In this document: positions 17,964 through 34,730 of the stretch, piece by piece
Position numbering within the stretch: the first letter of the stretch is position 1
How the letters are laid out: every line of letters starts with the position of its first letter
The notes under the pieces: generated by a model
The model's database searches: none
Told to the model about the DNA's origin: nothing
What the model saw: the letters and a program-made list of their open reading frames with translations, nothing else
Translations under genes and position numbers: made by a program
Assembly (NCBI RefSeq): GCF_017357865.1
Contig: NZ_CP060096.1
Span: forward strand, 1,178,001 to 1,242,000
From: Aceticella autotrophica
GTDB lineage: Bacteria > Bacillota > Thermoanaerobacteria > Thermoanaerobacterales > Thermoanaerobacteraceae
Length of the DNA: 64,000 nucleotides
Direction: 5' to 3'

Positions 17964-19178
17964 TTATTCATACCTTAAAGCTTCGATAGGATCAAGGTCT
18001 GCTGCTCTTTTTGCCGGATACACTCCAAATATTATACCGAGGGCAATTGAACCTAAGAAAGCCAGTATTACAACAGTATAATTAACAGTAGAAGGTATTT
18101 TGATTATATTTGCTATAATCATACCAGCACCTATTCCCAGTATTATCCCAATGATTCCTCCTATGCCTGTCATAATAATTGATTCTGTTAAAAATTGAAG
18201 AATGATATCTCTTTTTTGTGCCCCAAGGGCTTTTCTCAATCCGATTTCCTTTATCCTTTCTGTTACAGATACAAGCAATATATTAACTATACCTATTCCG
18301 CCAACTATAAGCGTTATTGCTGCAATTACCAACAGCACTGATGATATAACAGATAATACACTATTGACGATTTTTTGTACATCCTGGACATTTTGTGCCA
18401 TATATTTCCCTTTGCTTTGATGTGTCAATTCTAAAATTTTTATCGCTCTTTGGCTTATGTCATTTAACTGATCCCTTTTTTCTGTTGAAACATAAAGCGT
18501 ATTTATTTTATCACCATTATTATACATACCTTGCAATGTAGTAAGAGGTATATAAATCGTTATGGGAAAATCATCACTGCTCATTCCCGGTGCTATAATT
18601 ATATTGCCCGCTTGTTTTAAAACACCAATTATCGTGAATTTGTTGCTTACACCATTACTGCTTATTACCTCAACAACCCTACCAATGGGGTTATTGTTTT
18701 TAAAATATTTTTTTGCAAAATTTTCATCAACAACAACGACATTTCTTTTCCCTTTATCATCAAAATCATTAAACATTCTTCCAGCAGCCATATCTGCCGG
18801 AAAAAAATTTTTGTATTGTGCTGTTATACCATATACAAAAGCATTTCTGCTCTTGCCGTTAACTTTTACCTCGGCATTTCTCTGTGACGCTGCACATATA
18901 TTTTTTATTTCGGGTACAGCTTTTTTAACCTTATCCATATCACTCATGCTAAGTAAATTATCGTCAGGATTACTACCGTACTTTGCCTGTATATTTATTA
19001 CATTTGCACCTATTTTCTCGAATTGTGAATTCATATATGCGGTTGTTGCATTACTTATCGCTACAATTGTAATAACCGAAAATACTCCCATTATTATACC
19101 CAGCATTGTAAGTATTGAGCGAAGTTTGTTGTTTTTAAGGCTGTCAAAAGCCTGTTTGAAACTTTCCAGAAAGCTCAT
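17964..19178 (-). CDS. MacB-type ABC transporter permease
   Basis: 404 residues of the FtsX/MacB fold: first membrane segment after LRSILTMLGIIMGVFSVITIV, a large extracytoplasmic MacB_PCD domain (about residues 45-270), then three C-terminal segments with VSVTERIKEIGLRKALGA and the ending PAKRAADLDPIEALRYE. It works with the ATPase at 20839-21576 and the adaptor upstream. It is the last gene of the four-gene operon, 10 bp after the adaptor. Likely role is export of peptides, drugs or lipids. Confidence 0.93.
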   Translation of the reverse strand: MSFLESFKQAFDSLKNNKLRSILTMLGIIMGVFSVITIVAISNATTAYMNSQFEKIGANVINIQAKYGSNPDDNLLSMSDMDKVKKAVPEIKNICAASQRNAEVKVNGKSRNAFVYGITAQYKNFFPADMAAGRMFNDFDDKGKRNVVVVDENFAKKYFKNNNPIGRVVEVISSNGVSNKFTIIGVLKQAGNIIIAPGMSSDDFPITIYIPLTTLQGMYNNGDKINTLYVSTEKRDQLNDISQRAIKILELTHQSKGKYMAQNVQDVQKIVNSVLSVISSVLLVIAAITLIVGGIGIVNILLVSVTERIKEIGLRKALGAQKRDIILQFLTESIIMTGIGGIIGIILGIGAGMIIANIIKIPSTVNYTVVILAFLGSIALGIIFGVYPAKRAADLDPIEALRYE

Positions 19179-19187
19179 TTTAAAACC

Positions 19188-20105
19188 TCACTTTTTATTA
19201 TTTGTTACGATTGCTTTAGAACCATCTGTTAAATTTGGCTGTGGATCGATTATTACTGCATCTCCTGATTTTAATCCACTTAATATCTCTGCATTAAAAT
19301 CAGATACTATACCCAATTTTATGCCTTGCTTGTGTATTATGTTATTGCTGTCAACCTTATACACATATTGATTCCCATCTTTGTCTTCCATAAGCATATC
19401 AAGTGATAACAGCGGAACATCCTTTTTTTCACTTGTGAGTATATCACATGATACATTGAGTCCCGGCCTTATAATGGAATTTAATTTATCAACAGAAATT
19501 GTAGCCTGAATTACAGTCTGTGCACCGGTACTTGTTTTTTGCTGTGTCGCTACAGGTGCTATGCTTAAAACCTTACCTGTTATGTTTTCTGATTTATCGA
19601 TAGCATCACCATATATCTTGACACTCTGTCCAACCTTTACTTTTGGCAAATCAGCTTCTTTTATATCTGCCTTTACAACTAAATCCTTTATATCTACAAT
19701 CCGCATTGCCGGTGTCATGGTGTTTGTATAGGACCCTTTTTCTACATTTATTTCACTGACAACACCATCAATAGGACTTTTTGCTGTATCACTTATATTA
19801 TTTGTAACAACATCTATAAGTTTATCATTTTTTTCAACAGTCTGACCAACTTCAACATATATTTTATCTACCTTTGAAGGTACGGGAAAATTTATATCTG
19901 CACTATTTTTTGCATCAATTACACCATTTGCTGTTACAATTGAAGATATATTGCCGTTTTCAATCTTTTTAGTTTCTACATTGAATGTCTTTCCATTTCC
20001 AGTCGCAAGCGCACTTTTATTCTTTTTACTTTGATAAATATTTGCTGCAACAAATAAAACTATCAAAATTATTACAAAACTGCCTATCCAAAATTTTTTC
20101 TTCAT
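19188..20105 (-). CDS. efflux periplasmic-adaptor-type protein (MacA/HlyD-like)
   Basis: 305 residues. One N-terminal membrane anchor (residues 5-23), then a biotinyl-lipoyl hairpin domain (KIYVEVGQTVEKNDKLIDV ... SPIDGVVSEINVEKG) and beta-barrel (VKVGQSVKIYGDA). In Gram-positive bacteria such proteins link MacB-type permeases to the outside surface. Part of the operon with the MacB-type permease and ATPase. Confidence 0.91.
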   Translation of the reverse strand: MKKKFWIGSFVIILIVLFVAANIYQSKKNKSALATGNGKTFNVETKKIENGNISSIVTANGVIDAKNSADINFPVPSKVDKIYVEVGQTVEKNDKLIDVVTNNISDTAKSPIDGVVSEINVEKGSYTNTMTPAMRIVDIKDLVVKADIKEADLPKVKVGQSVKIYGDAIDKSENITGKVLSIAPVATQQKTSTGAQTVIQATISVDKLNSIIRPGLNVSCDILTSEKKDVPLLSLDMLMEDKDGNQYVYKVDSNNIIHKQGIKLGIVSDFNAEILSGLKSGDAVIIDPQPNLTDGSKAIVTNNKK

Positions 20106-20123
20106 TATATATATCCTCCATAT

Positions 20124-20822
20124 TTATGACAATTTCAAGCTGTTAGCAGATAAAAGAATCATCACAATATATACAGCGGATACTACTGAATATACCTTTG
20201 CACTGCTTAATTTGCTGACTACTTTTAGTCCTATGGCATAAACGATAAATTGCCATATGCTAAATAAATTAATTCCGCGAATTATACCATATAGAAAGCT
20301 TCCCTTTAAATCTGGAGCAAAAAGATTTGTTATACTTGCAAGTGAGGTGTCTAAAATTAATGAGCCTGTAAAATATGATGCAATAAGAGTGACGATCATG
20401 GATATTATGACTATTGTATAAGCATATCCTGTTACTGATAGATATTGCTTAAATTTGCCTTCTCCTTTAAATATCCTTAATATCCCCCAAAAGATAAATG
20501 TAATGACTATCCACATTATAATAACTCCAATAGGGGCTGTGATTAAACCAATTTTAGTTGAAAATGAAATCATAGATGGTGTCATTTGTGCTGCCTGTGG
20601 AGTATTCTCAAGTTTTGTTTTCACCATCTGCTCAAATAAGGGATATCTTATTAAATAGAAAATGGGTGTAGTTAATAACATTGCAAGAATGGGATACAAA
20701 ATGTCTGACTTTTGTGCAATTGCTTCCATTGCTTTTTTGGGTGATACTATAACACCTATAACCCTTTGTAAGAAACTCATCTGTTTTACTTCTTTATCAT
20801 TTCTTAATTCCATATTCTCCAT
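20124..20822 (-). CDS. Yip1-family membrane protein
   Basis: 232 residues with about five hydrophobic segments; the N-terminal FLQRVIGVIVSPKKAMEAIAQKSD is characteristic of bacterial Yip1-domain proteins found beside MacAB-type pumps. Function is unknown. It lies between the ATPase and the adaptor, with short spacers (17-19 bp), so it is probably part of the pump. Confidence 0.82.
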   Translation of the reverse strand: MENMELRNDKEVKQMSFLQRVIGVIVSPKKAMEAIAQKSDILYPILAMLLTTPIFYLIRYPLFEQMVKTKLENTPQAAQMTPSMISFSTKIGLITAPIGVIIMWIVITFIFWGILRIFKGEGKFKQYLSVTGYAYTIVIISMIVTLIASYFTGSLILDTSLASITNLFAPDLKGSFLYGIIRGINLFSIWQFIVYAIGLKVVSKLSSAKVYSVVSAVYIVMILLSANSLKLS

Positions 20823-20838
20823 TTTATTTTCCTCCCTT

Positions 20839-21576
20839 TTATTGATTTACGGCTTTCGCCTTTTTTAAAGCTAAAATATCATTTGCAATAAGTGTATTTT
20901 CAACAATGACGTCTTTTATCATCTGCCCGTCCCTAAATGTTATTATGCGTTTTGCATGTTGTGCTATATCCATCTCATGTGTGACAAGCAATAATGTTAC
21001 CCCTTCTTTATTGAGTTCTTGAAATACTGCCATCACCTCCTCCCCTGAAAAACTGTCGAGATTTCCTGTGGGTTCATCTGCAAGGATAATTGTGGGATTA
21101 TTGACAAGAGCTCTTGCTATCGCAACTTTTTGTTTCTGACCTCCTGATAATTCATTGGGTTTATGATTCATCCTGTCTGCAAGATTTACACGTGATAATG
21201 CTTCAATCGCTCTTTTCCTTCTTTCTTTAGCAGGTACACCTGCATATACCATTGGAATCTCAACATTCATAAGTGCTGTCATTCTTGGAAGTAAATTAAA
21301 TGATTGGAATACAAAGCCTATTTTTTTGTTTCTAATCCTTGCAAGCTCTGCATCATTTAATTTGGAGATATTGATGCCTTCAAGTTCATATTCCCCTGAC
21401 GTCGCTCTGTCAAGGCAGCCTATGATATTCATAAGAGTAGATTTGCCTGAACCGGATGCGCCCATTATAGCGACAAATTCATTTTTTTCTACTTCGAGAT
21501 TAATATGTCTTAGTGCCTTTACTTCTATCGGTCCTGTTTTGTAGGTTTTACAGATGTCTTTTATTTCAATAATCAT
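20839..21576 (-). CDS. MacB/LolD-type ABC transporter ATP-binding protein
   Basis: 245 residues. Walker [11 protein letters not shown]-loop [19 protein letters not shown], signature [15 protein letters not shown], Walker [13 protein letters not shown] and the H-loop [11 protein letters not shown]. First gene of the efflux operon. A perfect 18-bp palindrome lies 61 bp before its start, identical to two copies near the LuxR-type regulator. Confidence 0.95.
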
Positions 21577-21636: not shown

Positions 21637-21654
21637 ACTATACTTTTGTATAGT
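21637..21654. promoter_or_regulatory. 18-bp palindromic operator, copy 3
   Basis: ACTATACTTTTGTATAGT, a 7-4-7 inverted repeat identical to the sites at 28593 and (inverted) 28632. It lies between the exporter stop codon and the start of the MacAB-type operon. Confidence 0.75.
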
Positions 21655-21660
21655 GCATCA

Positions 21661-23301
21661 TCAGTTTTGTGAATTTTCAACATTTATATTTAGATCAATA
21701 TCAAGATACGGTACATCTTCGTGAGATATCATTATAATAATTTTATCCTTTTTAATTTGATCTAAGTATTTACAAAAATTTTCCTTTGAATAGTCGTCTA
21801 AAAATGTCAATGCTTCGTCCAATATAATGATTTGAGGATCATGTGCTAAAGCTCTTAAAATCGTAATTTTTCTTTTTTGCCCCCCTGATAAGTTATCTCC
21901 GTTGTTTGTAATTATACTGCTAAGATTCAAAATCTTATCATTTATTAAATCATTAAAACCCAGCTTTTCACACAAAGTTGTTATTCTATTATCATCAATG
22001 TCTCTTCCCATTTTTATATTGCTTTTTATTGTATCATTAAATAAATATGTATTTTGCGGTACAATTCCAACAAGTTTTTTTAATGAGTATATATTTATAT
22101 TTTTTATATCTATATCATCAAATTTCACAACACCAGATTGAGGAGTTAACAAACCACACATTATATCAATTAATGTCGTTTTCCCTTTGCCATTGGCTCC
22201 TGCAATTCTTATGATTTTACCAATCTCTAATTTTAAGCTTAAATTATTGATTATACTATTATCTTTTTGATATGAAAAAGTTACATTTTCTAATGTTATA
22301 CAATTCTTTATCTTTGACATCTTTATATCGTCTGTTTTTTCTTTTTTATCTTTTCCTACAATTTCTAAATATCTTTTTAATGCTACTTTTGATTTTTGCA
22401 AATCTATATTTATATTTGATAATGATTTTATTGGTTGAAATAGTTGGTTAATATATGCCGATAATGCTACAATACCGCCTATAGTTAATCTCCCTTGTAT
22501 TACCTGATATCCACCATATAAAAGTAAAATCAGCGAAGGAATAAAAAATAAAAACGACAGTAATGTATTGCTTATGCTATTTATATAAACACTATCAAAT
22601 CTTTTATTTATATATTCATGCAATACAAACGAAAATCTCCTTTGAGCAAATTTATATGCTTTTAAATATTTTATTATTTTTATATTAAAAATATTTTCCT
22701 GTAATACATTACTAATTTTTGAATTAATCTGCATAAATTTTAAATTTATATTTCTAAATATTGGATTATAATATCTTAAAACAATGTAAATCATAGGTGT
22801 TACTAATAATGAAATAATTGTTATATCCCTATTTATGGTAAACATTATTACAAAAGCTATAATTAGAGTTGCTACCTGTGTAATTATATTTATAAATGTC
22901 CCAGCAAATAAATTCACAACATCAGGTAATTCATTTAAAATTCTTGACATAATCTCACCTGTTTGTTTTTCATTAAAGAAAGTAATTTCTTTATTCACAA
23001 CACTCTTATATAAATTTAATCTTAAATCATACAGCATTTTCTCTCCAATATAAGTAAAAATATATGACTGAATAATATTTAAAATAGTTCCTAATATATA
23101 AATAACTGCAAAAATTATTATATACCTTATTAAATTATGTACATCCTTATTTGCTATTGCAATATCTATGATTAATTTAATAATGTACGGATTCAACAAC
23201 GATATAATAGTTGATATAATTATTATAAAAAATCCTATAATTTCTTTTATCATATAAGGTTTTATTATTGAATATACATGCCTAAACTCATCTTTTTTCA
23301 T
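21661..23301 (-). CDS. ABC exporter (fused membrane and ATPase domains) of the RiPP locus
   Basis: 546 residues: six-helix type 1 exporter domain in the first 310 residues, then ATPase with Walker A GANGKGKTTL, signature NLSGGQKRKI and Walker B IIILDEALTFLDD. There is no N-terminal C39 peptidase, so it cannot remove a leader itself. It is the last gene of the run that holds the radical SAM enzyme and precursor. It probably exports the modified peptide or gives self-protection. Confidence 0.88.
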   Translation of the reverse strand: MKKDEFRHVYSIIKPYMIKEIIGFFIIIISTIISLLNPYIIKLIIDIAIANKDVHNLIRYIIIFAVIYILGTILNIIQSYIFTYIGEKMLYDLRLNLYKSVVNKEITFFNEKQTGEIMSRILNELPDVVNLFAGTFINIITQVATLIIAFVIMFTINRDITIISLLVTPMIYIVLRYYNPIFRNINLKFMQINSKISNVLQENIFNIKIIKYLKAYKFAQRRFSFVLHEYINKRFDSVYINSISNTLLSFLFFIPSLILLLYGGYQVIQGRLTIGGIVALSAYINQLFQPIKSLSNINIDLQKSKVALKRYLEIVGKDKKEKTDDIKMSKIKNCITLENVTFSYQKDNSIINNLSLKLEIGKIIRIAGANGKGKTTLIDIMCGLLTPQSGVVKFDDIDIKNINIYSLKKLVGIVPQNTYLFNDTIKSNIKMGRDIDDNRITTLCEKLGFNDLINDKILNLSSIITNNGDNLSGGQKRKITILRALAHDPQIIILDEALTFLDDYSKENFCKYLDQIKKDKIIIMISHEDVPYLDIDLNINVENSQN

Positions 23302-23333
23302 AATTCACCCCAAATTTAATATATTCTTTAACT

Positions 23334-25004
23334 TTAGCTTATTTCATAATATCTTTTAGAACCAAAATAAAGCAAAAGTTTATAAAGAATGAATAACAAT
23401 ATTCCTAAACCAATAAGAACCATAAAATATTTATTAGTTATAAATCTCAAAATCTTTATTATAAAGTTGCTCATGAAAATTACAAATATAATTAATATTA
23501 GCATAGATATGAGTACATTAATATTTTGCCTTACCACCACCCTTTGATTCTCCCAATTCAACATAGGTAAACAAAACTCACAAAATATCCCTATAATAAA
23601 ATAAATGTTTAATACTAAAAATCCTATTATAAAAGCAACTAAAAGATAAATTACACTTAATTTAGTTAGAAAAAAACTAAAAATACAAGTTAACACACCA
23701 AATAAAATACTTAAAATATTACAGTGCAATAATTTTGCTTTTATATATTCTTCAGGACTTATTGGTAATGATTTAATATAATAAAAAGTCTTGCCTTCTC
23801 GTGATAGTGCTGTTGATGCTATTAAATTAGATCCCCCAAGTAAGATATAAGCCAAAGAGATAAACATAATAATTAAATATTTTGTTTCTAAATTTTTATT
23901 TGCATTTTGAATCTTCAGTAATATATCCGGCATTCCTGAATAAAAAGAATAAAATAAAAACAGTGGAATAATTAATGTCATAATTAATCCATAAATAATA
24001 AACGTAGAATCACGATAAAATAGTTTCATATCCCTTTGTAACAATGCTAAGACCTTACTTTGATATTTAGAAAATGAATCCATTATATTAAAAGTTCTCT
24101 GCTTATTTATTCCACTTACTTCATTATTACGTGATATAATATAAACTAAGTTATTGGATAATAATTTTAATATAAGAATGAGTCCTGCCACTGAAATAAA
24201 AATAAATATTATCATATATTCAAAAGAAATTAATCCTTTTTTAATAATAGCCTCATAGGCAATATTTACAGGATAAAATATTTTTGAAATATGTTCCAAT
24301 TGAAAAACTCTTTGCTTTATTAAGTTTATTCCAGTATTAGTGTTACTTTTAAGATAATTCTGCATACCTGTAATTTCTTTTGCCAAGATTATAAAACATA
24401 TATTTATTATAAACGCCATAATGTTGGCAAAACCTCTTTTATCAAAAAAATACCCAATCCTTTGTAGCAATATAATAACAAAAAATTGTAATGCCATTGG
24501 AAGCATAGGAATTAATGTTGTTATTATTAATGCAAAAATATAATATGTAAAAGGTTTGTCCGAATTTACACCATTGATAATAACTCCCGGCATTAATACA
24601 ATTAATGCAATAGCTAATTGGAATATATACCCTGATGCAAATCTGCTAAGTAAAATTTGCCATGATTCAAGTGGAAAAGTCATAATATAGTTATATTGTT
24701 TATTACTGCTTATTAATGAAATATATGAACCAAATAAACCAAGTGTTAATAATAAAATAAACGTAAAGTTTAAAAGACCTTTTATCATTAAATTTTGCTC
24801 ACCTGTTAAGCTCAGATTATGATAAATAAATTCATTAATTTGTATATAACCACTGATTATATTATAAAACAAAAATAAAAGTATCCCATATATAAATAAT
24901 CTTAAATATAATTTTTCTCTTTCGTATTTCCATGAATAATTAAATCCATGAAATCCATATAATGATTTGTAATGGTATTTTAATAATGTCCATATTTCTT
25001 TCAT
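23334..25004 (-). CDS. ABC transporter permease, large multi-pass
   Basis: 556 residues with about twelve hydrophobic segments and no ATPase domain. The start overlaps the stop of the ATPase gene by 4 bp, so they form a two-gene transporter. The layout resembles ABC-2-type permeases in bacteriocin self-immunity or export systems. Sequence motifs are weak. Confidence 0.8.
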   Translation of the reverse strand: MKEIWTLLKYHYKSLYGFHGFNYSWKYEREKLYLRLFIYGILLFLFYNIISGYIQINEFIYHNLSLTGEQNLMIKGLLNFTFILLLTLGLFGSYISLISSNKQYNYIMTFPLESWQILLSRFASGYIFQLAIALIVLMPGVIINGVNSDKPFTYYIFALIITTLIPMLPMALQFFVIILLQRIGYFFDKRGFANIMAFIINICFIILAKEITGMQNYLKSNTNTGINLIKQRVFQLEHISKIFYPVNIAYEAIIKKGLISFEYMIIFIFISVAGLILILKLLSNNLVYIISRNNEVSGINKQRTFNIMDSFSKYQSKVLALLQRDMKLFYRDSTFIIYGLIMTLIIPLFLFYSFYSGMPDILLKIQNANKNLETKYLIIMFISLAYILLGGSNLIASTALSREGKTFYYIKSLPISPEEYIKAKLLHCNILSILFGVLTCIFSFFLTKLSVIYLLVAFIIGFLVLNIYFIIGIFCEFCLPMLNWENQRVVVRQNINVLISMLILIIFVIFMSNFIIKILRFITNKYFMVLIGLGILLFILYKLLLYFGSKRYYEIS

Positions 25005-25726
25005 GCTTCAGTCATCTCCAGAAAAATTTCTTCTAAATCCTTTTTATTATCTTTTTTAATTTTTAATTCATTAACAGTCCCAGAATAAATAATCCTACCG
25101 CCCTTTATAATCGCGATTCTGTCACATATGTCTTCTGCCATTTTTATAAGGTGTGTTGTAATAAATACCGTTTTGCCTTGATCAGCTAAAGTCCGCATAA
25201 TATTTTTTAAGTTTCTGATTGCCTTTGCATCAAGCCCAATTATTGGTTCATCCATAATTAAAATAGATGGTTCATGGATTAGTGCTCCTAAAATTAATAA
25301 TTTTTGCTTCATACCATGCGAATAACTCTCTATTTTCATATTTAATACATCATTAATTTCTAATATTCCACCGAATTTCTCTATGTTTAGCTGCCTTGTT
25401 TTATTATTTATTTCATATATATCTGATATAAATCTTAAATATTCAAATCCTGTAAGTTTATTAAATATTTCAGGGTCATCCGGTACATAACCTATTTCCT
25501 TTTTTGCTTTAAGAGGGTCTTTCAATATATCATATCCATTGATTAAAACTTTTCCACTATCGGGTTTTAATATACCGGTAATAATTTTTACAGTTGTTGT
25601 TTTACCAGAACCATTTGGACCAAGAAAACCGAAAATCTCACCTTTATATACTTCAAGGTTTAATGAGTCCACAGCTTTTTTATCACAGCCATAATATATC
25701 TTTGAAATATTATATAAATTGATCAT
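25001..25726 (-). CDS. ABC-2-type transporter ATP-binding protein
   Basis: 241 residues. Walker A GPNGSGKTTTVKI, Q-loop GYVPDDPEIFNKLTGFEYL, signature SYSHGMKQKLL (a common variant), Walker B ILIMDEPIIGLD and H-loop TTHLIKMAEDICD. It resembles the BcrA/CcmA group often found in peptide immunity. Partner of the overlapping downstream permease. Confidence 0.93.
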   Translation of the reverse strand: MINLYNISKIYYGCDKKAVDSLNLEVYKGEIFGFLGPNGSGKTTTVKIITGILKPDSGKVLINGYDILKDPLKAKKEIGYVPDDPEIFNKLTGFEYLRFISDIYEINNKTRQLNIEKFGGILEINDVLNMKIESYSHGMKQKLLILGALIHEPSILIMDEPIIGLDAKAIRNLKNIMRTLADQGKTVFITTHLIKMAEDICDRIAIIKGGRIIYSGTVNELKIKKDNKKDLEEIFLEMTEA

Positions 25727-25759
25727 AAATTGTTAGCAGCTCCTTCAGAATATTTCAAT

Positions 25760-26080
25760 TTATAACACTTTTAAATTTATCAGAATAATTATTATATCGA
25801 CAATCAGTAAAAGCATACTTACAAACATATAGGAAATATCATTATAGATATTCGTTGTTTTACCTTTTGCTTTAATTTTTTTTATTATATAAATTATTGT
25901 CTGTATTACAGGTAAGATAAAAATAAATTGCAATTTAGATGCAGTATTTGAGATATTCCCATTGAATTGCCATTGAATAGCAACTGTTTCAGGCAATGCC
26001 TTATAAAAAATTATATTTATAATAAATGTAAAAACAGCAAATATCCATCCATGTTTATTCAAAAATCTTATTGATCGCAT
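25760..26080 (-). CDS. small DUF1648-like membrane protein
   Basis: 106 residues with three or four membrane segments. The motif FYKALPETVAIQWQFNGNIS is the DUF1648 signature (LP..ia.HWn..G). The domain occurs in SdpI-type immunity proteins, so self-protection is plausible here. It directly follows the precursor gene in the RiPP run. Another DUF1648 protein lies at 29891-30391. Confidence 0.75.
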   Translation of the reverse strand: MRSIRFLNKHGWIFAVFTFIINIIFYKALPETVAIQWQFNGNISNTASKLQFIFILPVIQTIIYIIKKIKAKGKTTNIYNDISYMFVSMLLLIVDIIIILINLKVL

Positions 26081-26183
26081 AAGATATTCTCTCCCTCCTT
26101 TTGTATAATAAATCTTACTTATAATAAGTCATATTTGCCAACTTTATTATAAAATTATATTATTTCTCAATTTTACAGAAAAG

Positions 26184-26220
26184 ATAGGGAGAAAGTATAA
26201 TAAAAATTTATTCTCCCTAT
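26184..26220 (-). terminator. hairpin after the RiPP precursor gene
   Basis: ATAGGGAGAA pairs with TTCTCCCTAT (10 bp) with a 17-nt loop. Read on the - strand it is followed by CTTTTCTG, a weak U-run. It may act as a leaky terminator or an RNA stabiliser that raises precursor mRNA over the transporter genes. Confidence 0.55.
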
Positions 26221-26244
26221 TTAAACAATTTAAACAGTTAACGT

Positions 26245-26445
26245 TTATTTTTCATTCTTTTCTGCAAGTGGAACAACATCGAGTACAGCCCACGCTACAG
26301 CTGCTAATGCTACAAAATAACCTACAGCTATAGTATCTGTATATACAGCTGTATTACTATACCAAATTCCTGTAGGTTGCAGTTCCCCATTTAGGTTGAT
26401 ATTTTGAGAACCCAATGTTTGAACTGTAGGTTTTACATATGACAT
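26245..26445 (-). CDS. RiPP precursor peptide, cysteine-free
   Basis: 66 residues from an ATG 6 nt after GGAGGTG (a longer frame from 26469 would include that site). The N-terminal part MSYVKPTVQTLGSQNINLNG looks like a leader. The rest holds ELQPTGIWYSNTAVYTDTI, then a hydrophobic stretch VGYFVALAAVAWAVLDVVPLA and a charged tail. There is no Cys, so thioether chemistry is excluded. It has Trp, Tyr, Asn and Asp as possible sites for radical SAM C-C cross-linking. It directly follows the radical SAM gene. I do not recognise the class. Confidence 0.7.
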   Translation of the reverse strand: MSYVKPTVQTLGSQNINLNGELQPTGIWYSNTAVYTDTIAVGYFVALAAVAWAVLDVVPLAEKNEK

Positions 26446-26475
26446 TTTCTTCACCTCCACCAATGACATTATATT

Positions 26476-26515
26476 ATTAAGTTAATAATCAATTAAAATT
26501 GACCATTAACTTAAT
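26476..26515 (-). promoter_or_regulatory. hairpin between radical SAM gene and precursor gene
   Basis: ATTAAGTTAAT pairs with ATTAACTTAAT, with further AT pairing inside the loop. It overlaps the radical SAM stop codon and ends just before the precursor's ribosome site. It may be an attenuator or processing site. Confidence 0.45.
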
Positions 26516-27555
26516 GAATATGCCTCTCTTTCCTTTGACATCTCATCTATAAAGTCTACAAATATATCATTTTCAAGCCAAACAGTCGGTACATCTTCTT
26601 TAACATTATTCATATCCATTATAGAAAGTACATTTTGAGCCATTTTTCTAGGCAATTCTTTTTGCCAAAGTTTTGCAAGCCCGGCTTTCCAATATTCACT
26701 AAATCTATGTTTTCGAATATTTCCAACTACTAAAGGAAGATAAGGAGATGCTACAATATCGCCATTTGCTCTAATTGAAACATAATTAACACAATCCATA
26801 GCTATAGTTCTAAATCTTATCAAATGATCGATCGGATCACCCCATTCAACTATTGGTTTTTTCCCTTTTAAATTGATATCATGTATATATTTTACTAATT
26901 GTCTATATTGAAGTTGTGTAGGCATTATCTCATTTAAATGTTGATTTGCTCTACCTAATAACATCAACGGTTGTACCCTTAATTCTTGTATATCTAATTT
27001 ATTTAACAAATTATGTACTTCGTCAAATTCATTAATATTAAAAGCTGTTGGACAAAAAGAAACATTAACATTTGATATTCCTGTGTCTTTTAAAATTTTT
27101 ATTGCGTTAATAGCCCTATTAAATGCACCGTTTTTATTTCTTAATCTATCATGTGTATTCGGGCTTGCTCCATCAATACTTATTTGTATACGATCAATAC
27201 CATTCTTTTTTAATTGATAAGCTATATCTTCTGTCATTAAATAACCATTAGTTACAAGCGATACGTGACTTGTTTTTGCCTCAATTAATAATTTAGCACA
27301 TTCATAAATTAATTCTCTTCTTATTAGTGGCTCTCCACCACAAAAACATACATTAAGTAGCTTCATCTCTGCTATTTCTTTTATAAAATTTATAACTTCC
27401 TGATCTGTTAATTCATTATCTACTACTATATTTTCACCACTTGAATTATAACAATGAAGGCATCTAAAATTACATTTGTTAGTTATATCAAATGATAACT
27501 GATGTGGACCTTTTAAAATTTCAATATTATCAATTAATATATTCTCTTTTCTCAT
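26506..27555 (-). CDS. radical SAM peptide maturase
   Basis: 349 residues. The CX3CX2C cluster motif is CNFRCLHC (about residues 28-35), followed by CFCGGEPLIRRELI and LVTNGYLM. The C-terminal region has CVNYVSIRANGDIVASPYLPLVVGN, which follows the SPASM-type pattern but lacks the usual cluster cysteines after the first, so auxiliary clusters are absent or reduced. It is placed between a PqqD-GNAT fusion and the small precursor and should modify that peptide. The exact reaction cannot be read from sequence. Confidence 0.88.
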   Translation of the reverse strand: MRKENILIDNIEILKGPHQLSFDITNKCNFRCLHCYNSSGENIVVDNELTDQEVINFIKEIAEMKLLNVCFCGGEPLIRRELIYECAKLLIEAKTSHVSLVTNGYLMTEDIAYQLKKNGIDRIQISIDGASPNTHDRLRNKNGAFNRAINAIKILKDTGISNVNVSFCPTAFNINEFDEVHNLLNKLDIQELRVQPLMLLGRANQHLNEIMPTQLQYRQLVKYIHDINLKGKKPIVEWGDPIDHLIRFRTIAMDCVNYVSIRANGDIVASPYLPLVVGNIRKHRFSEYWKAGLAKLWQKELPRKMAQNVLSIMDMNNVKEDVPTVWLENDIFVDFIDEMSKEREAYSLS

Positions 27556-27600
27556 AAATGTTCATTCCTTTCTTCAAAAAAATATAAATAGATCATATTA

Positions 27601-28482
27601 TCATATCAAAAAGTATGAATAAATGCATAGGTCATTTCTCCCTAATTCATATTTCAAAATACCTTCATTTACAAAGCCAGCATTTATCAAATTATTTTCT
27701 ATTATTTTTGCTTCATTCATATCTTTTAATATTTGTAATTCAATTTTTGTTATCTCTTTCACGCAGATTTGTGGAACATTTTTAGCTATATAGTCAATCA
27801 TATTTTTAATGTACTTGCCATTTAACACCATAACACCAATTTTTGCTACAGTAGAATATTTTTCAACAGGTATCCTTAACGTAATAATTCCAATGATTTT
27901 GTTGTTTTCTTTTAGTACAAAAAATTCTTCAGAATAATTAAATAATTTTTGTCGTAATATTAATTCACTTAAATATTCATTAAATTGTATTGTTGGATTA
28001 ATATAAGTCAACTTATCATTTTGTCTTTCATTCTTTAAAAAAATAATTTGAAAATACTGATAAATTTCTCTTAGTTCGTCTTCCATAACAGTGCTAATAC
28101 TAAGGTCACCTTCCAATGTTTCTTCATTAATATACATAAACGGATTATTCCCTCCTTCCCATCGTATTAAATTACACATCGAAAAATCAAACAACACATC
28201 AACAACATCTTTTGTAATTTTATCTTTAGCAACATCAGAGTATAAAGTTAATAATTTATCACGTATTATTTTTGGTATATTTTTACCATTACAAAGTTTT
28301 AAAATTATTTTAGCTGTGGGGTTTATAATTAAATAGTTCACTAATGGAAAATTTTTAGGTACACATGTTATATATCCCATATTTTCTTCTCGATAGAAAC
28401 TCAAATTTGATTTGACAAACATAGGTTTTTCATTTATTTTCTCAATAAAATATGGGTTTATCCTTTCTTTAGTTAAAAACAC
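27601..28482 (-). CDS. PqqD-like (RRE) and GNAT acetyltransferase fusion
   Basis: About 293 residues. Residues ~40-115 follow the PqqD/RiPP-recognition pattern: INPTAKIILKLCNGKNIPKIIRDKL, then DVVDVLFDFSMCNLIRWEG. The C-terminal half has a GNAT-like fold with FFVLKENNKIIGIITLRIP and IENNLINAGFVNEGILKYELG. The first half should bind the leader and present it to the radical SAM enzyme; the second may acetylate the product. I chose the GTG at 28482, 6 nt after GGAGGTG; the GTG at 28491 lies inside the ribosome site. Two 18-bp palindromes precede it. Confidence 0.75.
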   Translation of the reverse strand: MFLTKERINPYFIEKINEKPMFVKSNLSFYREENMGYITCVPKNFPLVNYLIINPTAKIILKLCNGKNIPKIIRDKLLTLYSDVAKDKITKDVVDVLFDFSMCNLIRWEGGNNPFMYINEETLEGDLSISTVMEDELREIYQYFQIIFLKNERQNDKLTYINPTIQFNEYLSELILRQKLFNYSEEFFVLKENNKIIGIITLRIPVEKYSTVAKIGVMVLNGKYIKNMIDYIAKNVPQICVKEITKIELQILKDMNEAKIIENNLINAGFVNEGILKYELGRNDLCIYSYFLI

Positions 28483-28592
28483 TATTTTCACCTCCAGTTT
28501 AATAAAATACTTAATTATTAAAGTTTGGATTCTTATTAAATATTTTTACCATATCTTTATTTCCATTTTACAACGATATCTTTCCAATGTCT

Positions 28593-28610
28593 ACTATACT
28601 TTTGTATAGT
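28593..28610. promoter_or_regulatory. 18-bp palindromic operator, copy 1
   Basis: ACTATACTTTTGTATAGT, perfect 7-4-7 inverted repeat, about 110 bp before the PqqD-GNAT start. Confidence 0.75.
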
Positions 28611-28631
28611 TTTAACATAAAAAGCAAAAAA

Positions 28632-28649
28632 ACTATACAAAAGTATAGT
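28632..28649. promoter_or_regulatory. 18-bp palindromic operator, copy 2 (inverted centre)
   Basis: ACTATACAAAAGTATAGT is the exact reverse complement of copy 1. The starts are 39 bp apart, close to four helical turns. Together the two copies can also fold into a 21-bp hairpin, so a terminator role for the regulator gene ending at 28658 is possible, although no U-run follows. Confidence 0.75.
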
Positions 28650-28657
28650 CTTAAAAT

Positions 28658-29443
28658 TCACTCTATATCTATTAAATTTAATTTAACCGCTTTTGCAACT
28701 GCTTCCTGAATGCTTGTTACACATAGCTTCTCAATTATTTTCCTCTTATGGTATTTTACAGTAACAGGTTTAATTCCAATCTCTATCGATATGGCCAATT
28801 CTTTATAACCCTTTGCAAGCATTAGCAATATCTCTATCTGATTATCAGTTAAATTTATATTGCCGTTATTTAGTTCTTGCTCTTTTATATTGGTTTTATA
28901 TTCATTGGCAATTTTATCTGCAAGCAATTCTAAAACTATAGTCATTTCATTCACCATGCCATGTTCTATCGTCGATACATCAAGATATCCTATTATCATT
29001 TCATCTATAATGATAGGCGCTGCAATACAATACCATTTTTTCAAAATGTCACAGTAATGATGCTGAGGTTCTAAATAAACTAATCTTCTTAATTTCATCG
29101 CCATTGAAATGGCATTTGTCCCTACGGCTTCTTCTTTAAAAGACGTACCTATTCTAAAACCCGATTTATCTATGCAACAGCGTGTTTTCTTATTACATCT
29201 TATATTTAGAAGATAACCATCGTAATCAGTTAATAAAAATATGTATTCTCCTTTAGTCTGATTTAAAATATTATCAACACAATTATGAAATACATTAATA
29301 AGTCCTATGTTTTTATTTAATCTGATTTGTAAATCTTCTTCTTTTAAAGTTATAGCTGGACATGGTATTGAACTTTTGATGCCTATCTCCATACATCTTT
29401 TATAAGAAGAAAGCATTTCATTATATATTTGTAATTCTTCCAC
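28658..29443 (-). CDS. GAF-domain LuxR-type transcriptional regulator
   Basis: 261 residues. The middle region GTSFKEEAVGTNAISMAMKL ... QHHYCDILKKWYCIAAPIIID ... IGYLDVST is a GAF sensor of the type found in AcoR-like activators. The C-terminal LuxR helix-turn-helix is LTDNQIEILLMLAKGYKELAISIEIGIKPVTVKYHKRKI. A Cys-rich CNKKTRCCIDKSGF could bind metal or sense redox. It is the first gene of the RiPP block and the natural candidate to bind the nearby palindromes. Confidence 0.85.
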   Translation of the reverse strand: MEELQIYNEMLSSYKRCMEIGIKSSIPCPAITLKEEDLQIRLNKNIGLINVFHNCVDNILNQTKGEYIFLLTDYDGYLLNIRCNKKTRCCIDKSGFRIGTSFKEEAVGTNAISMAMKLRRLVYLEPQHHYCDILKKWYCIAAPIIIDEMIIGYLDVSTIEHGMVNEMTIVLELLADKIANEYKTNIKEQELNNGNINLTDNQIEILLMLAKGYKELAISIEIGIKPVTVKYHKRKIIEKLCVTSIQEAVAKAVKLNLIDIE

Positions 29444-29890
29444 AAAAACTCACCTCATTAATTACTCACAGACACGTTCCAATACAATTTATTATTTCTA
29501 CAAAATATTTCATATTCCTTCTATTCAATTAAAAAAATTACTATTATTCGCAAAGTTTTTTTGTAAAAAAATAAGCTGCTGTACAATCTATACAGTGCTT
29601 TTGTTTAGTTATAGTTTATTATTTTGATTTTTATAAAACATTCAAAATGAAATTATGGCATCTTATTAAAAGAGAGGCAATTGTTTAATTTTATTTTCTT
29701 TTGTATTTTATCGTTTCTCATATCAATAATTAGTATTTCTGCATTTTTTGTAAACGGGAAGTACTTCCAGATAAATTTCGGAAAATAATTTTCTTGAATT
29801 TTTTCCATATGTCCATTAAAAACTTTTACCTATTATTTTAAAAAGTCACATCTGTATGTTAAACTTCTGTATCCTTTTTATCTACAATTT
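29444..29890. other. intergenic region before the regulator, with a degenerate operator
   Basis: No gene seen. At 29592-29609 the sequence ACAGTGCTTTTGTTTAGT matches the 18-bp palindrome at 14 of 18 positions, about 150 bp before the regulator start, which would fit autoregulation. The rest is AT-rich, without a convincing ORF or terminator. Confidence 0.5.
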
Positions 29891-30391
29891 TCACCTTAGT
29901 TTTATTGATTTTATAATAAAATATACTATTGTAACAAAAATTATTATCAATAAAATAGCAATAGAGCCGATTCCAAGTTCTTTAAACTTCCCTAAAGCTA
30001 TAAAGATATCTTTATATAAAATAAATAAAAACATAAAAATAATCTCTCCCTTTAAACAAGTCATAAGCGTACGCGCATTTCTATATTGTCGCTCTGCATT
30101 TTCCTCAGTAATTTCAGGAATATAATTAAATATATGAGGAAATCTATTTATATATGAAAACATAAAATATAATAAAATGCTCACTATAGGTATTAAAAAA
30201 AGAGTTTCTTTGCTACTCCAAGAATCTGGATTACCAGATAAACTATAATGTATTGGAACTTTATTTGGAAGATATGGCCAATACCTAATAAATAGTAATA
30301 ATTCTAAAATGAGATTAATTATTACTATTATTTCGATAACTTTTTCAAATGTTGAAAATTTTAACTTTAAAACAGACCTATTTTTATACAT
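29891..30391 (-). CDS. DUF1648-domain membrane protein
   Basis: 166 residues, four membrane segments. The DUF1648 signature is RYWPYLPNKVPIHYSLSGNPDSW. Such domains occur in SdpI-like immunity proteins, so it may protect against the RiPP product. Its promoter region is cut by the IS21 end at 30422, 31 bp before the start codon. Confidence 0.78.
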   Translation of the reverse strand: MYKNRSVLKLKFSTFEKVIEIIVIINLILELLLFIRYWPYLPNKVPIHYSLSGNPDSWSSKETLFLIPIVSILLYFMFSYINRFPHIFNYIPEITEENAERQYRNARTLMTCLKGEIIFMFLFILYKDIFIALGKFKELGIGSIAILLIIIFVTIVYFIIKSIKLR

Positions 30392-30511: not shown

Positions 30512-30957
30512 GTGGAGTTGATTTCTTTGAAGAACAAACAGGAAATAATATTATCATATATAAGAGATGGTAAATCTCAAAGACAAATATCTAGAGAAAC
30601 TGGTATTGATAGAAAAGTTATTAGAAAATATATTAAAAAATATGAAGAAAAGAGAAGGGACTTGATAAATGAAGGGAAAATAGATGGAAATGCCGATATT
30701 CAAGAGATTATTGATGATATAATCGAAAGGCCTAAGTACAATAGCGAAAACAGACATAAACGAAAATTAACCGAGAAAGTGATAAATCGTATAAAATTTT
30801 ATCTTAGAGAAAATGAGCAAAAAAGATATTTAGGACAGTCCAAACAACAAAAAAAGAAAATTGATATATATAATGTCTTAAGAGAAGAAGGCTATGACAT
30901 CGGTTATACATCCGTTTGTCAAGCAATAAATGAAATATTAAATGACCAAAAAGAGGC
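30512..30957 (+). CDS. istA: IS21 transposase IstA, exon 1
   Basis: N-terminal part (first 148 codons plus 2 nt) from a GTG after GGGAGCG. It holds a helix-turn-helix (DGKSQRQISRETGIDRKVIRKYIKKY). The frame runs up to GAG GC, then the intron begins with GTGCG. Joined to 37091-38243 it gives exactly 533 codons including the stop, with the junction reading KEAYIKAEYQLGDVCEFDWGEV, the expected IstA sequence. The gene is functional only if the intron splices. Confidence 0.9.
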
Positions 30958-31850
30958 GTGCGCTGCGTTTGTGCGATAATCTTATCCTAATAAGATAAGA
31001 AAAACGCCAACATGTCAGAAATGGCATGATAACTGATTCATCGAATTCAAAGGTGAAATTCCTTTGCCACACAGAACTAACACTGATGAAGCAAATCAAA
31101 ACTGAAGTGGTGTGCGTGCTAATACTCCTGCATGCTGACATATATCGCTATATATGACAGTATGAAGCCAGGTGAAGTCGTAACCTGAAAACCTAAACTT
31201 AATAGGTTTCATAGGAAATCTATTAAGCATGGATAATAATGGTGCGGGCATCCAAGACCCATGGAGACGCAAGGAAGATACGTATGAAGTTCCTTAATTG
31301 GTCGCTTACCGAAAGGTAGAAACAATGGAAGTCAAGTATAATACTGCTTCTTTATTATTCTTGTATAAGCCTGAAATGACTTATAACAGCCAATGAATAA
31401 CTGTGGTTCAAACATTGGTGTGAACTTTCCGGAATATAGTATCCTCCTAAGGGTCTTAATCAAGGATAGATGAATCGGAACGCAGGAGAGCCTATAAGTG
31501 GAATATAGCGACATAATGAAACTTATAGGAAGTCAGAGGTGTCATAGTAGTAATGAAGTGCTATAACATAAATAGCATAGAGCGAAGGACACCAGACGGT
31601 TAGTACCTATAATAATTCTCAAAAGGCAAGCCTTGAAAGTCCTTGGAATATAGGTAATTAACCACAGTGTTATACAGCAAATTATTTCAATATAAAAAAT
31701 GATATAAAAAGCAAAATAATTTAACCTTATCCATTATGTAAAGTTAATTAATTTTCATATCCATGTATAAGATTGGTTAATCTTGCCTACAATTATAGAA
31801 AAAAATAATGGGGCGGTAAAATTAATTACCTCCCCAAGAAAGGTATCACA

Positions 31851-32423
31851 ATGATAATTATAGCCTTTCCAATTAAAAATATACATGAATATATCGAAAA
31901 TAAATCATATTTGTACATAGATACACCATCTGGATGCCCTAATTGCAATTACAACGGTAAATTGCACAGGCATGGCTATTACTGCAGGGGTGTCTTTATC
32001 GACAATAATTGCATAGATATTACCATAGCAAGAGTTATTTGTCCTGTATGCCATAAAACACATGCTTTAATACCGGACTTTTTAGTGCCATATTTCATCT
32101 ATCCTTTATCTGTTATTCTAACTTCCTTGAAAAAAATATTTATCGATGGACATGGCACTACATATGTTGCTGATGAGATCATTAAAGAGTTTAATTTGTC
32201 TTTTGTGAAACAGCAAAATATCAGTTATTTCAAAATGAGATTTCTCTCGATTATGAATTATATTCACAGCTTTTTTGCTAATTTTCAAGAATACATTGAA
32301 ACAATGAACAGTTTATCACCTAAAACTTTGATAAGCAATATTTATAAATATACAAAAGAAAAGGTAAAGTTTAATTTACACTATTTTGATTTGATGAAAG
32401 TACATTTTTTCAAAAAAGTTTAG
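31851..32423 (+). CDS. DUF6431-like zinc-ribbon protein of the transposable element
   Basis: 190 residues. Two CXXC pairs, GCPNCNYNGKLHRHGYY and VICPVCHKTHALIPDFLVPYF, give a zinc ribbon followed by a helical region. It matches the DUF6431 pattern seen with transposable elements in Firmicutes. Its role is unknown; target selection or end binding is a guess. A GGGG...CCCC hairpin at 31809-31836 precedes the start. The copy at 63642 differs upstream by a 2-bp indel. Confidence 0.75.
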   Translation: MIIIAFPIKNIHEYIENKSYLYIDTPSGCPNCNYNGKLHRHGYYCRGVFIDNNCIDITIARVICPVCHKTHALIPDFLVPYFIYPLSVILTSLKKIFIDGHGTTYVADEIIKEFNLSFVKQQNISYFKMRFLSIMNYIHSFFANFQEYIETMNSLSPKTLISNIYKYTKEKVKFNLHYFDLMKVHFFKKV

Positions 32424-32653
32424 ACTTAATTCTTGGTAGATTTTTTTTGCTTTTTTGCAAAAGTCATATTTTATCATAATTTAATCGCTATTTTTGACTG
32501 TATAATTATTTTAATTCGATTAAAAATGTTTAATCTGAATTTGTCTATGTAAATTTATCTAATTCGCATTTTATTTCTCCACATAACATTTGTGAATGCA
32601 CCATCATTATCCAGTTAATAATACTTTCAAAGATAATTGAGGAGGCTTTTAGA

Positions 32654-33892
32654 ATGGATAATGATGTTAAACAAAAAATTGCTTATTTTAAATTTTCTTT
32701 GATAGCACCGCTTATCAATGAAAATTACACTCAGGAAACAGCAAAAGAATATATGGAGGTTATTACTTCTAAGGTTTATGATGTGCCTTCGTTAGGTAAA
32801 AGAGAATTTTCTCCTAATACAATTAAGACATGGCTTTACTGTTACAGAAAATATGGATTTGAAGGTCTATATCCTAAAAGCAGATGCGACAAAGGTGCTT
32901 CAAGAGTTTTAACTGATGACATTAAAGCCTATATTAAGAATCTAAAAGTTGATAATCCAAGAAGATCAGCTAAGTCAATCTATCAGGAACTTTTAGTTAA
33001 AAAGTTTATTGACCTTGATAAGGTATCCTTATCTACAATCCAAAGATATCTTCGAAAAACTAAAATATCTACATCAGCATTGAATACAAAAGACAGGAGA
33101 GCTTTTGAAATGGAGTATCCTAATGACTGCTGGCAATCTGATATATCTATGGGTCCATACTTAGTTATTAACGGCAAGAAGATTAAGACATACCTTATTG
33201 CTTTTCTGGATGATTCATCAAGGTTAATAACACATGCAGAATTTTATGAGACAGATAATGTCATATCACTTATTGATGCATACAAAAAAGCTGTTTCAAA
33301 AAGAGGTGTTCCTAAAAAACTATTTGTTGATAACGGCAAGGTATTCCAAAGCGAACAATTGCATTTAATATGTGCATCATTAGGAACGTCTTTATGTTAT
33401 GCTGAACCGTATTCGCCAGAATCGAAAGGAAAAATTGAAAGGTTTTTCAGAACATTAAAAGACCAATGGATGTATGGATTTGATTGGCAGAAAATATCTT
33501 CCATAGACGAATTGAATGAGAACTTGAATAAATATATTGAAGGAATATACCATCAAACAGTACATTCATCAATAAATATGAAGCCCATAGAGAAATTCAT
33601 TAAATATACTGACACGATGAAATTCATAGATTCTAAAGAAGAGATTGATAACATATTTCTCTATAGAGTCAAAAGGCGTGTAATTAAAGATGCCACAGTA
33701 TCAATAGAAAAAGTCAAATTTGAAGTGCCAATGCAGTATATCGGTGATTATGTAAATATACGATATTATCCAAAATCACTTGATAAAGCATATATTTTTA
33801 GTGAAGACGGCAAACTCTTGCAAACAATACATCCCGTAAACAAAATTGATAATTCTAAGATAAGAAGAAAAGAAATAGACTTTTCTTTGTAA
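32654..33892 (+). CDS. DDE transposase, TnsB/TniA-like (Mu-type integrase core)
   Basis: 412 residues. Helix-turn-helix domains in the first 140 residues (SPNTIKTWLYCYRKYGFEGL, SLSTIQRYLRK). The rve core has D163 in CWQSDIS, D226 in FVDNGKVF and E262 in SPESKGKIERFF, so the DDE triad is intact. The C-terminal beta-barrel domain is of the Mu-transposase type. It starts after GGAGG and is followed at once by the ATPase gene. Confidence 0.9.
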   Translation: MDNDVKQKIAYFKFSLIAPLINENYTQETAKEYMEVITSKVYDVPSLGKREFSPNTIKTWLYCYRKYGFEGLYPKSRCDKGASRVLTDDIKAYIKNLKVDNPRRSAKSIYQELLVKKFIDLDKVSLSTIQRYLRKTKISTSALNTKDRRAFEMEYPNDCWQSDISMGPYLVINGKKIKTYLIAFLDDSSRLITHAEFYETDNVISLIDAYKKAVSKRGVPKKLFVDNGKVFQSEQLHLICASLGTSLCYAEPYSPESKGKIERFFRTLKDQWMYGFDWQKISSIDELNENLNKYIEGIYHQTVHSSINMKPIEKFIKYTDTMKFIDSKEEIDNIFLYRVKRRVIKDATVSIEKVKFEVPMQYIGDYVNIRYYPKSLDKAYIFSEDGKLLQTIHPVNKIDNSKIRRKEIDFSL

Positions 33893-33913
33893 ATGAAGAA
33901 AGAAGGAAAAACA

Positions 33914-34717
33914 ATGTTCAATGTATATTATGGATTAACTTTTAATCCATTTTCTAAAGAATGTGATGTAAAATATCACTACAAATCACAGGATTATATA
34001 CAAGCAATGAGCAGATTAGAATTTTTAAAAGACAAAAAAGGATTTGGGCTAATAACAGGAGATCCTGGATCTGGTAAGTCATATACACTAAAATGCTTTG
34101 TAAATTCTTTAAATCCTAATATGTACAAGGTTGTATACATACCGATATCAACGCTTACAGTTATGGATTTTTACAAGTATTTGTCCGACGGCCTCGGATT
34201 AATACCGAAGCATAGAAAATGCGATATGTTTCGCCAGATACAGGATGTAATATTAAGCTATCATTCAAAAAACATAACTCCCGTTATCATCGTTGATGAG
34301 GCTCAGTTCATAAGCAACTCAATCCTTGATGATTTACGCATTATATTTAATTTTGACATGGACACAAAAAATTATGCATTACTTATATTATCAGGACAGA
34401 CACAATTAATTATACAGTTGAATAGACAAGCACATGAAGCATTAAGGCAGCGAATAGTTTTAAATTATTCATTTAAGGGTTTAAACAAAGATGAAACAAA
34501 AGAATATATAACATCCAGATTAAAATGTGCAAACTGCAATGAAACAATATTTACTGATGACGCAATTGAATTAATATATTCAAGCACAAATGGATATTTA
34601 AGAAAAATTAATTTACTTGCAGAAATGTCAATGATATTAGGAGCTAAAGAAAGTCAAAAAACTATAAATGGCGAGCTAGTATTTAGAGCTCAAAGCGATA
34701 TAAATATTACAGAGTAA
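33914..34717 (+). CDS. ExeA/TnsC-like AAA ATPase of the transposable element
   Basis: 267 residues. The N-terminal YYGLTFNPFSKECD is the ExeA-type opening, Walker A is GDPGSGKSYTLKCF, Walker B VIIVDEAQFI, and sensor residues lie near LLILSGQTQL and REALRQRIVLNY-like sequence. Such ATPases choose targets and activate the transposase (TnsC, TniB, MuB). The ATG at 33914 has AAGGA at good spacing; one at 33893 abuts the transposase stop. Confidence 0.88.
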   Translation: MFNVYYGLTFNPFSKECDVKYHYKSQDYIQAMSRLEFLKDKKGFGLITGDPGSGKSYTLKCFVNSLNPNMYKVVYIPISTLTVMDFYKYLSDGLGLIPKHRKCDMFRQIQDVILSYHSKNITPVIIVDEAQFISNSILDDLRIIFNFDMDTKNYALLILSGQTQLIIQLNRQAHEALRQRIVLNYSFKGLNKDETKEYITSRLKCANCNETIFTDDAIELIYSSTNGYLRKINLLAEMSMILGAKESQKTINGELVFRAQSDINITE

Positions 34718-34730
34718 TTGTATGTATGAG

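Follow-up and report, generated by a model that had tools for sequence, protein, structure and literature searches.

What can a radical S-adenosylmethionine (SAM) enzyme do to a peptide that contains no Cys? The question is posed by a locus of the thermophile Aceticella autotrophica within a stretch of 64,000 nt (contig NZ_CP060096.1, positions 1,178,001 to 1,242,000; hereafter the window, whose numbering is used throughout), where a short precursor gene lies beside genes for a radical SAM (rSAM) enzyme and for a PqqD-type leader-binding domain fused to a GNAT domain. A sequence-only reading had described an unclassified locus for a ribosomally synthesized and post-translationally modified peptide (RiPP), and had considered acetylation, C–C linkage and epimerization as its chemistry. 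Comparison with related loci makes it probable that this is an undescribed RiPP family whose rSAM enzyme is an epimerase making alternating D,L β-helical, membrane-active peptides; the family evidence thus favours epimerization among the three guesses, while acetylation finds no support. Epimerization fits because the cores follow the sequence logic of a D,L β-helix, relatives carry tailoring enzymes of the polytheonamide kind, and a single-cluster rSAM enzyme with a thiol pair is common to all clusters. The window cluster itself is best read as a minimal, Cys-free version of the family that has a regulator, an operator and exporters of its own. Its three central genes are as follows:

26245..26445, minus strand: precursor, 66 amino acids, Cys-free (open reading frame (ORF); leader 26368..26445, core and stop codon 26245..26367)
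26506..27555, minus strand: rSAM enzyme, proposed peptide epimerase (PF04055, E=1 × 10−30)
27601..28491, minus strand, likely start GTG 28482: PqqD-GNAT fusion (PqqD at about residues 20-110, GNAT fold at residues 130-294)

By ORF reading, all cluster genes of the earlier description are intact on the minus strand of the window, in the order GAF-LuxR regulator, PqqD-GNAT protein, rSAM enzyme, precursor, DUF1648 protein, ATP-binding cassette (ABC) transporter ATPase, ABC-2 permease and ABC exporter; the 66-residue precursor is present as described, adjoining the rSAM gene. The locus is also rightly called unclassified: none of the precursors scanned could be placed in Pfam or NCBIfam at significance, and the window rSAM enzyme stays below the cut-off of every NCBIfam model. 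A literature search confined to open-licence papers found no earlier description of the family.

Conserved cysteines of the radical SAM enzyme

Among 28 family rSAM enzymes, the only conserved Cys residues are C28/C32/C35, the CxxxCxxC triad of the radical SAM (RS) cluster, and C70 (28/28) and C72 (27/28), which sit in a C-x-C-GGE motif directly before the SAM-binding GGE; the exception at C72 is the frameshifted gene of L013 (C72R; L numbers denote further loci). As nothing else is conserved, the enzymes appear to lack auxiliary clusters and to hold a thiol pair, C70/C72, that would lie near SAM. The last 150 residues contain 0-5 Cys, none of them conserved; in most related paralogues outside the family the motif is I-x-F-S-GGE and the count over the same stretch is 7-11. 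The SPASM-like region without cluster-binding Cys, already seen in the sequence-only reading, was confirmed by a score of 15.2 bits for PF13186 (cut-off 21.5) and by the absence of any conserved C-terminal Cys from the 28 enzymes. An AF2 model of the window enzyme (pLDDT 86) gave SkfB as the best Foldseek match (E=9 × 10−17; the closest solved fold, 6efn); the matches include SuiB and the epimerase EpeE (E=1 × 10−11), the latter counting for epimerization.

The same features bear on the guess of C–C linkage, against which the missing auxiliary clusters count. An rSAM enzyme that forms a C–C or C–O cross-link (for example at Trp, Tyr, Asn or Asp) or desaturates its substrate would yield a cyclized or oxidized peptide; W, Y, N and D occur in the window core, and SuiB and SkfB are bond-forming RiPP rSAM relatives, but there is no auxiliary-cluster Cys to accept the extra electron, and known rSAM C–C cyclases use auxiliary clusters. 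Many family cores, moreover, are without aromatic or acidic acceptors (for example L022b, LAVVVETVAVVAVAVAAVAVATVVA), and cross-linking leaves unexplained the hexad register and the PoyE/PoyB-type partners described below. We consider such a product unlikely.

Leaders and cores of the precursors

The window precursor, whose ATG lies 7 nt downstream of the Shine-Dalgarno sequence GGAGGTG, consists of a leader (residues 1-26, MSYVKPTVQTLGSQNINLNGELQPTG) and a core (residues 27-66, IWYSNTAVYTDTIAVGYFVALAAVAWAVLDVVPLAEKNEK) devoid of Cys, the border between them being placed provisionally at the recurring xPxG or GG. Residues 1-28 are conserved in L013 and L015 (64-71% identity), and the polar tail of the core, PLAEKNEK, resembles PLSEQGGQDEQ in the precursor of L092 (L092:4013-5365), where a Collinsella genome has its second copy of the family. 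Across the 31 precursors collected from family loci, leaders measure about 20-30 residues and 28 carry a YxxP motif, which PqqD-like RiPP recognition elements (RREs) are known to recognize and which is common to lasso peptides (PMC12710340). Val, Ala, Ile and Gly abound in the cores. Their pooled hydropathy (25 cores) repeats at lag 6 (z=8.1), and the control set of 27 transmembrane windows peaks at lags 3 and 4 (z=3.8 and 4.7, respectively) with no peak at 6.

This comparison speaks to the view that the locus encodes a lasso-like or ordinary bacteriocin, with YxxP and PqqD reflecting shared leader recognition only and the core being a plain transmembrane helix. Hydrophobic cores would suit it, as would the use of YxxP/PqqD recognition by lasso peptides (PMC12710340), with which the window system shares a YxxP leader, a PqqD-like RRE and predicted reading of the one by the other. 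The helix controls, however, peak at lags 3-4 and the cores do not, and a plain transmembrane-helix bacteriocin was rejected for want of that periodicity; a lasso peptide was likewise rejected, as a Pfam scan of the cluster ORFs (21661-30391) revealed no asparagine-synthetase-like cyclase and no leader (B2) protease. We regard this view as very improbable.

In several relatives the hexad period is written out in Asn: NX5N patterns occur in the cores of L016, L024, L033 and L039-L043 (for example ...NANVGLNANAILNANVYTNANANLVANANGAVNANIGANWN in L039), and 58/58 Asn of the five methyltransferase clusters fall into one alternating register. Precursor arrangements also vary. L022 has four tandem precursor genes (L022:11072-11758) after one PqqD-GNAT/rSAM pair, and a Planctomycetota precursor (L045:4241-4435) consists of GVAA repeats ending in YYYYYYQTQTQTE, with a B12-rSAM enzyme nearby. 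The leaders of L032, L035 and L038 end in GG, and a nearby large transporter starts with an apparent C39-type peptidase, as read from sequence.

Partner enzymes and cassettes in relatives

A methyltransferase with an NPPF motif is encoded in L033, L039, L040, L041 and L042, and NPP[FY] recurs in genes at the same position in L094 and L096; those scanned with Pfam (L033, L039 and L042) belong to PF05175, and the nearest NCBIfam models of the L039 enzyme include HemK2/PrmC-type glutamine-amide methyltransferases. PF05175 is also the family of PoyE and AerE (PMC9259500). In polytheonamide, PoyE methylates eight Asn, of which methyl-Asn 16, 22 and 28 staple the β-helix, one turn corresponding to GNINVN (PMC11285071). 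NX5N cores were found in 5/5 methyltransferase clusters versus 1/18 clusters without a methyltransferase; in favour of the link, the Asn-hexad core of L040 came to light only once its methyltransferase had been noticed. B12-rSAM enzymes adjoin the precursor in L035, L038, L045 and L093; PoyB and PoyC are B12-rSAM C-methyltransferases. In a variant cluster, L096:3163-9251, two AMP-binding enzymes and the NPPF methyltransferase lie between the PqqD-GNAT and rSAM genes, and no precursor was recognized there.

A second, Cys-rich rSAM enzyme of SPASM type is present in the cassettes of L014, L016, L023, L031, L034 and L037. Core Cys, mostly C-terminal, occurs in 6/6 of these two-rSAM cassettes versus 2/20 others (P=1 × 10−4), suggesting a C-terminal thioether or similar modification; the window precursor is Cys-free in keeping with its origin from a one-rSAM cassette. 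With no Cys in the precursor, the sequence-only reading was correct that sactipeptide or ranthipeptide thioethers are excluded for the window product, and thioether chemistry was set aside. With sactipeptides and their SkfB-type maturases the system shares the closest solved fold and α-carbon radical chemistry, but the window core has no Cys, the rSAM enzyme has no auxiliary-cluster Cys, and regular core Cys is confined to the two-rSAM cassettes.

Two relatives show how such cassettes may be exchanged. In L014, a regulator (93% identity), a DUF1648 protein (90%) and ABC genes (97-99%) flank a different, two-rSAM cassette, and at L014:5084-13222 remnants of a window-type PqqD-GNAT protein and rSAM enzyme precede the complete two-rSAM cassette (core LAIAVAVAGVVWNVGGVYSYAAVAVAAVVAAVAFVW). 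L019:5526-10347 has the regulator (91%), smaller remnants and a two-rSAM cassette of the same type as that of L014. Cassettes have thus apparently been exchanged while regulator and transporters stayed in place, a sign that different products may be dealt with in the same way.

The PqqD-GNAT fusion

The fusion of a leader-binding domain to GNAT, as originally described, was upheld, although profile hidden Markov models bore out only one half of it. PF05402 (PqqD) narrowly passed in the window protein (23.5 bits, cut-off 23.4) and scored higher in relatives (34.1 bits in L020 and 26.7 bits in L042), whereas PF00583 (GNAT) stayed below its cut-off (14.3 versus 20.7 bits), as SPASM had done in the rSAM enzyme; the GNAT fold of residues 130-294 was nevertheless confirmed by AlphaFold and Foldseek (E=1 × 10−8; best matches RimJ and SpeG), and a family profile search returned PqqD and then diamine acetyltransferase, in the correct order. 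Translation probably starts at GTG 28482, because the GTG listed first falls inside the Shine-Dalgarno sequence and the L013 protein begins MFLTKE.

An active GNAT domain might cap or acylate the peptide as in selidamides (GNAT-acylated RiPPs), possibly besides the rSAM reaction. The confident GNAT fold speaks for this, as do a fusion that would put the domain on the precursor and cores that are hydrophobic like N-capped gramicidin. The acetyl-CoA pyrophosphate motif [QR]xxGx[GA], however, is missing at β4-α3 in 25/25 relatives, the domain is very poorly conserved in sequence, and few cores contain Lys; selidamides share a GNAT fold in the pathway, but here the domain is fused to PqqD and has no CoA motif. 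As the motif is missing in every member, acetylation was dropped as the leading idea, and we judge an active acyltransferase improbable. Most simply, the domain is a pseudo-GNAT.

Regulation, export and proposed immunity

The remaining features of the locus are:

28658..29443, minus strand: GAF-like regulator with LuxR-type helix-turn-helix, proposed activator of the operon (PF00196, E=3 × 10−11; PF01590, 19.7 bits, under cut-off)
28632..28649, strand unassigned: second palindrome copy, putative operator and/or terminator (3' end of the regulator gene, then a T-run on the minus strand)
28565..28610, minus strand: promoter with palindrome ACTATACAAAAGTATAGT (28610-28593) just upstream of the -35 element (architecture conserved in relatives)
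25760..26080, minus strand: DUF1648 small membrane protein, proposed immunity (PF07853, E=3 × 10−14)
25001..25726, minus strand: ABC transporter ATPase (Pfam scan)
23334..25004, minus strand: ABC-2 type permease (Pfam scan)
21661..23301, minus strand: ABC exporter, membrane and ATPase parts (Pfam scan)
21637..21654, strand unassigned: third palindrome copy and promoter-like sequence pointing towards the MacAB-like operon
17964..21576, minus strand: MacAB-like operon, proposed co-regulated export or self-protection (ABC ATPase, 20839-21576; Yip1 protein, 20124-20822; HlyD-type fusion protein, 19188-20105; MacB/FtsX permease, 17964-19178)

The palindrome ACTATAC-N4-GTATAGT, a predicted binding site of the regulator, has six copies in the 2.27-Mb genome and none in the reversed control. 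Two copies lie between the regulator and the operon, the first abutting a promoter (-35 TAGACA, 17-bp spacer, -10 TAAAAT at 28570-28565) with the same architecture in L013, L014, L015, L018 and L019. One lies upstream of the MacAB-like operon, where operator and promoter recur at 21637-21654, so that the cluster extends beyond the 21661-29443 first noted; from this common promoter architecture, the operon probably belongs to the system. At each of the remaining three, a truncated copy of the cluster regulator ends. Two such regulators, L097:7640-8005 and L098:9002-9490, are found in the same genome outside the window, each followed by palindrome and promoter, and are fossils of further cluster copies. 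The Pfam scan found no C39 peptidase domain in the window ABC exporter. SdpI/DUF1648 membrane proteins are encoded in L038, L039, L041 and L093 too, a recurrence that favours the main reading, and the window protein may confer immunity. Beside the cluster, at 30512-36979, ORF reading alone shows an IS-like fragment, two transposase genes resembling TniA/TniB (32654-34717) and, at 35084-36979, a reverse transcriptase of group II intron type.

Such fossils raise the possibility that the window cluster is itself degenerate or silent and that only relatives elsewhere are functional, all the more as decayed clusters occur in the same bacterial family (the frameshifted L013 rSAM gene, and the remnants in L014 and L019). 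The window genes, however, are all open and intact, the precursor has a good Shine-Dalgarno sequence and the promoter is conserved; decay of this cluster seems to us improbable.

Family distribution

The family was traced into about 35 genomes of Bacillota, Collinsella, Planctomycetota, Acidobacteriota and archaea. Within Bacillota, rSAM relatives occur in Thermoanaerobacterium, which belongs to the family of the host, a second genus of that family, Fervidicella, Lachnospiraceae, Oscillospiraceae, Anaerococcus, Enterococcus, Caloranaerobacter and Desulfosporosinus, and also in Caldicellulosiruptor-like genomes, whose placement in the same class is our own reading; elsewhere they occur in Collinsella, Planctomycetota, Holophagae, Gracilibacteria and two metagenome-assembled genomes (MAGs) of Thermoplasmatota, with single odd phyla being uncertain as MAG contigs may contain binning errors. 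In the majority of untruncated loci a PqqD-type protein adjoins the rSAM enzyme, and this side-by-side conservation across phyla argues that the pairing is not due to chance. Occurrence is rare and patchy: a clear match (at least 307 bits) was obtained in 5/398 genomes of the phylum, with a sixth borderline at 208 bits, and rSAM matches in 2/299 of one Lachnospiraceae sample. Phage searches gave one weak match to the rSAM enzyme, IMG/VR held no viral relatives of the PqqD-GNAT protein, and a plasmid search gave one match, in Collinsella.

Proposed mechanism and relation to known systems

The data show the layout of the genes, their conservation and motifs, the periodicity of the family, the promoter architecture and folds predicted with confidence; from these we infer epimerization, a role for the thiols, a β-helix, membrane action, a cleavage site, immunity and binding of the regulator, combined as follows. 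The GAF-LuxR activator would turn the operon on through ACTATAC-N4-GTATAGT. The PqqD domain would hold the YxxP leader and offer the rSAM enzyme the Val/Ala-rich core, the GNAT-fold domain serving as a non-catalytic docking or substrate-binding module. With the SAM-binding [4Fe-4S] cluster as its only cluster, the enzyme would use the 5'-deoxyadenosyl radical to abstract the α-hydrogen from core residues, and the C70/C72 thiol of C-x-C-GGE would return hydrogen on the opposite face, converting L to D, preferably at every second residue. After removal of the leader near QPTG and export by the ABC systems, the peptide would fold as an alternating D,L β-helix of about six residues per turn and act on membranes; the producer would be shielded by the MacAB-like pump and by the DUF1648 protein. 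The window product would be an epimerized hydrophobic peptide of 40 residues, or shorter if PLAEKNEK is trimmed.

The nearest precedent is the proteusins. Proteusin epimerases possess the RS cluster only, together with an RRE and, for hydrogen donation, a conserved Cys (PMC8326336); a single-cluster rSAM enzyme with conserved non-cluster Cys (here putatively catalytic) and an RRE are present in our family as well, as are Val/Ala/Asn/Gly-rich cores and, in relatives, NX5N cores, PF05175 methyltransferases and B12-rSAM enzymes. Our comparison with the thiol donors of PoyD and SPL is based on reviews. The leader, in contrast, is a short YxxP peptide rather than nitrile-hydratase-like, the PqqD-GNAT protein is separate, and the window cluster has no methyltransferases. 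The window system would work like the PoyD type but is not a proteusin, since it has neither the nitrile-hydratase-like leader peptide (NHLP) nor a match to TIGR04517. Epipeptides (YydF/EpeX with EpeE) are membrane-active products of Bacillota with an rSAM epimerase and a Cys hydrogen donor, as is proposed here, but EpeE has a second [4Fe-4S] cluster, for which the family enzymes have no conserved C-terminal Cys, and epipeptides have no PqqD-GNAT partner and a dissimilar precursor.

Several observations weigh against epimerization to a β-helix. Searched with the PoyD model TIGR04517, the window enzyme gave no hit of E≤10, which also led us to reject membership of the PoyD family, and the proximity of C70/C72 to SAM is deduced from their position before GGE rather than from a ligand-bound model. 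The window core by itself shows weak periodicity at lags 6/7 that is not significant (P~0.06) and contains no NX5N, and Asn-poor cores in general give a weaker lag-6 signal, spread over 5-7. The association of methyltransferases with NX5N counts as one evolutionary event, because the five clusters form a single clade. Lastly, the Pfam scan of the cluster ORFs found no protease gene nearby.

A few proteusin pathways are known to yield extensively epimerized β-helical RiPPs. The balance is even on whether this family represents a second, independent ribosomal route to gramicidin- and polytheonamide-like D,L channels, with a new single-cluster rSAM epimerase family, a C-x-C-GGE thiol relay, a PqqD-pseudo-GNAT chaperone and cassette swapping, patchily distributed in anaerobic Bacillota, gut Collinsella and Lachnospiraceae, and archaea. 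If so, its thermophilic members would provide short leader-driven epimerases for peptide engineering, its occurrence would point to membrane-active peptides in gut bacteria, and the conserved C-x-C pair would make the re-reduction of the epimerase thiyl radical a testable question. It would also mean that D,L channel peptides have evolved convergently by a separate lineage of enzyme and leader, with period-six cores, Asn ladders and PF05175 and B12-rSAM partners as the convergent signature.

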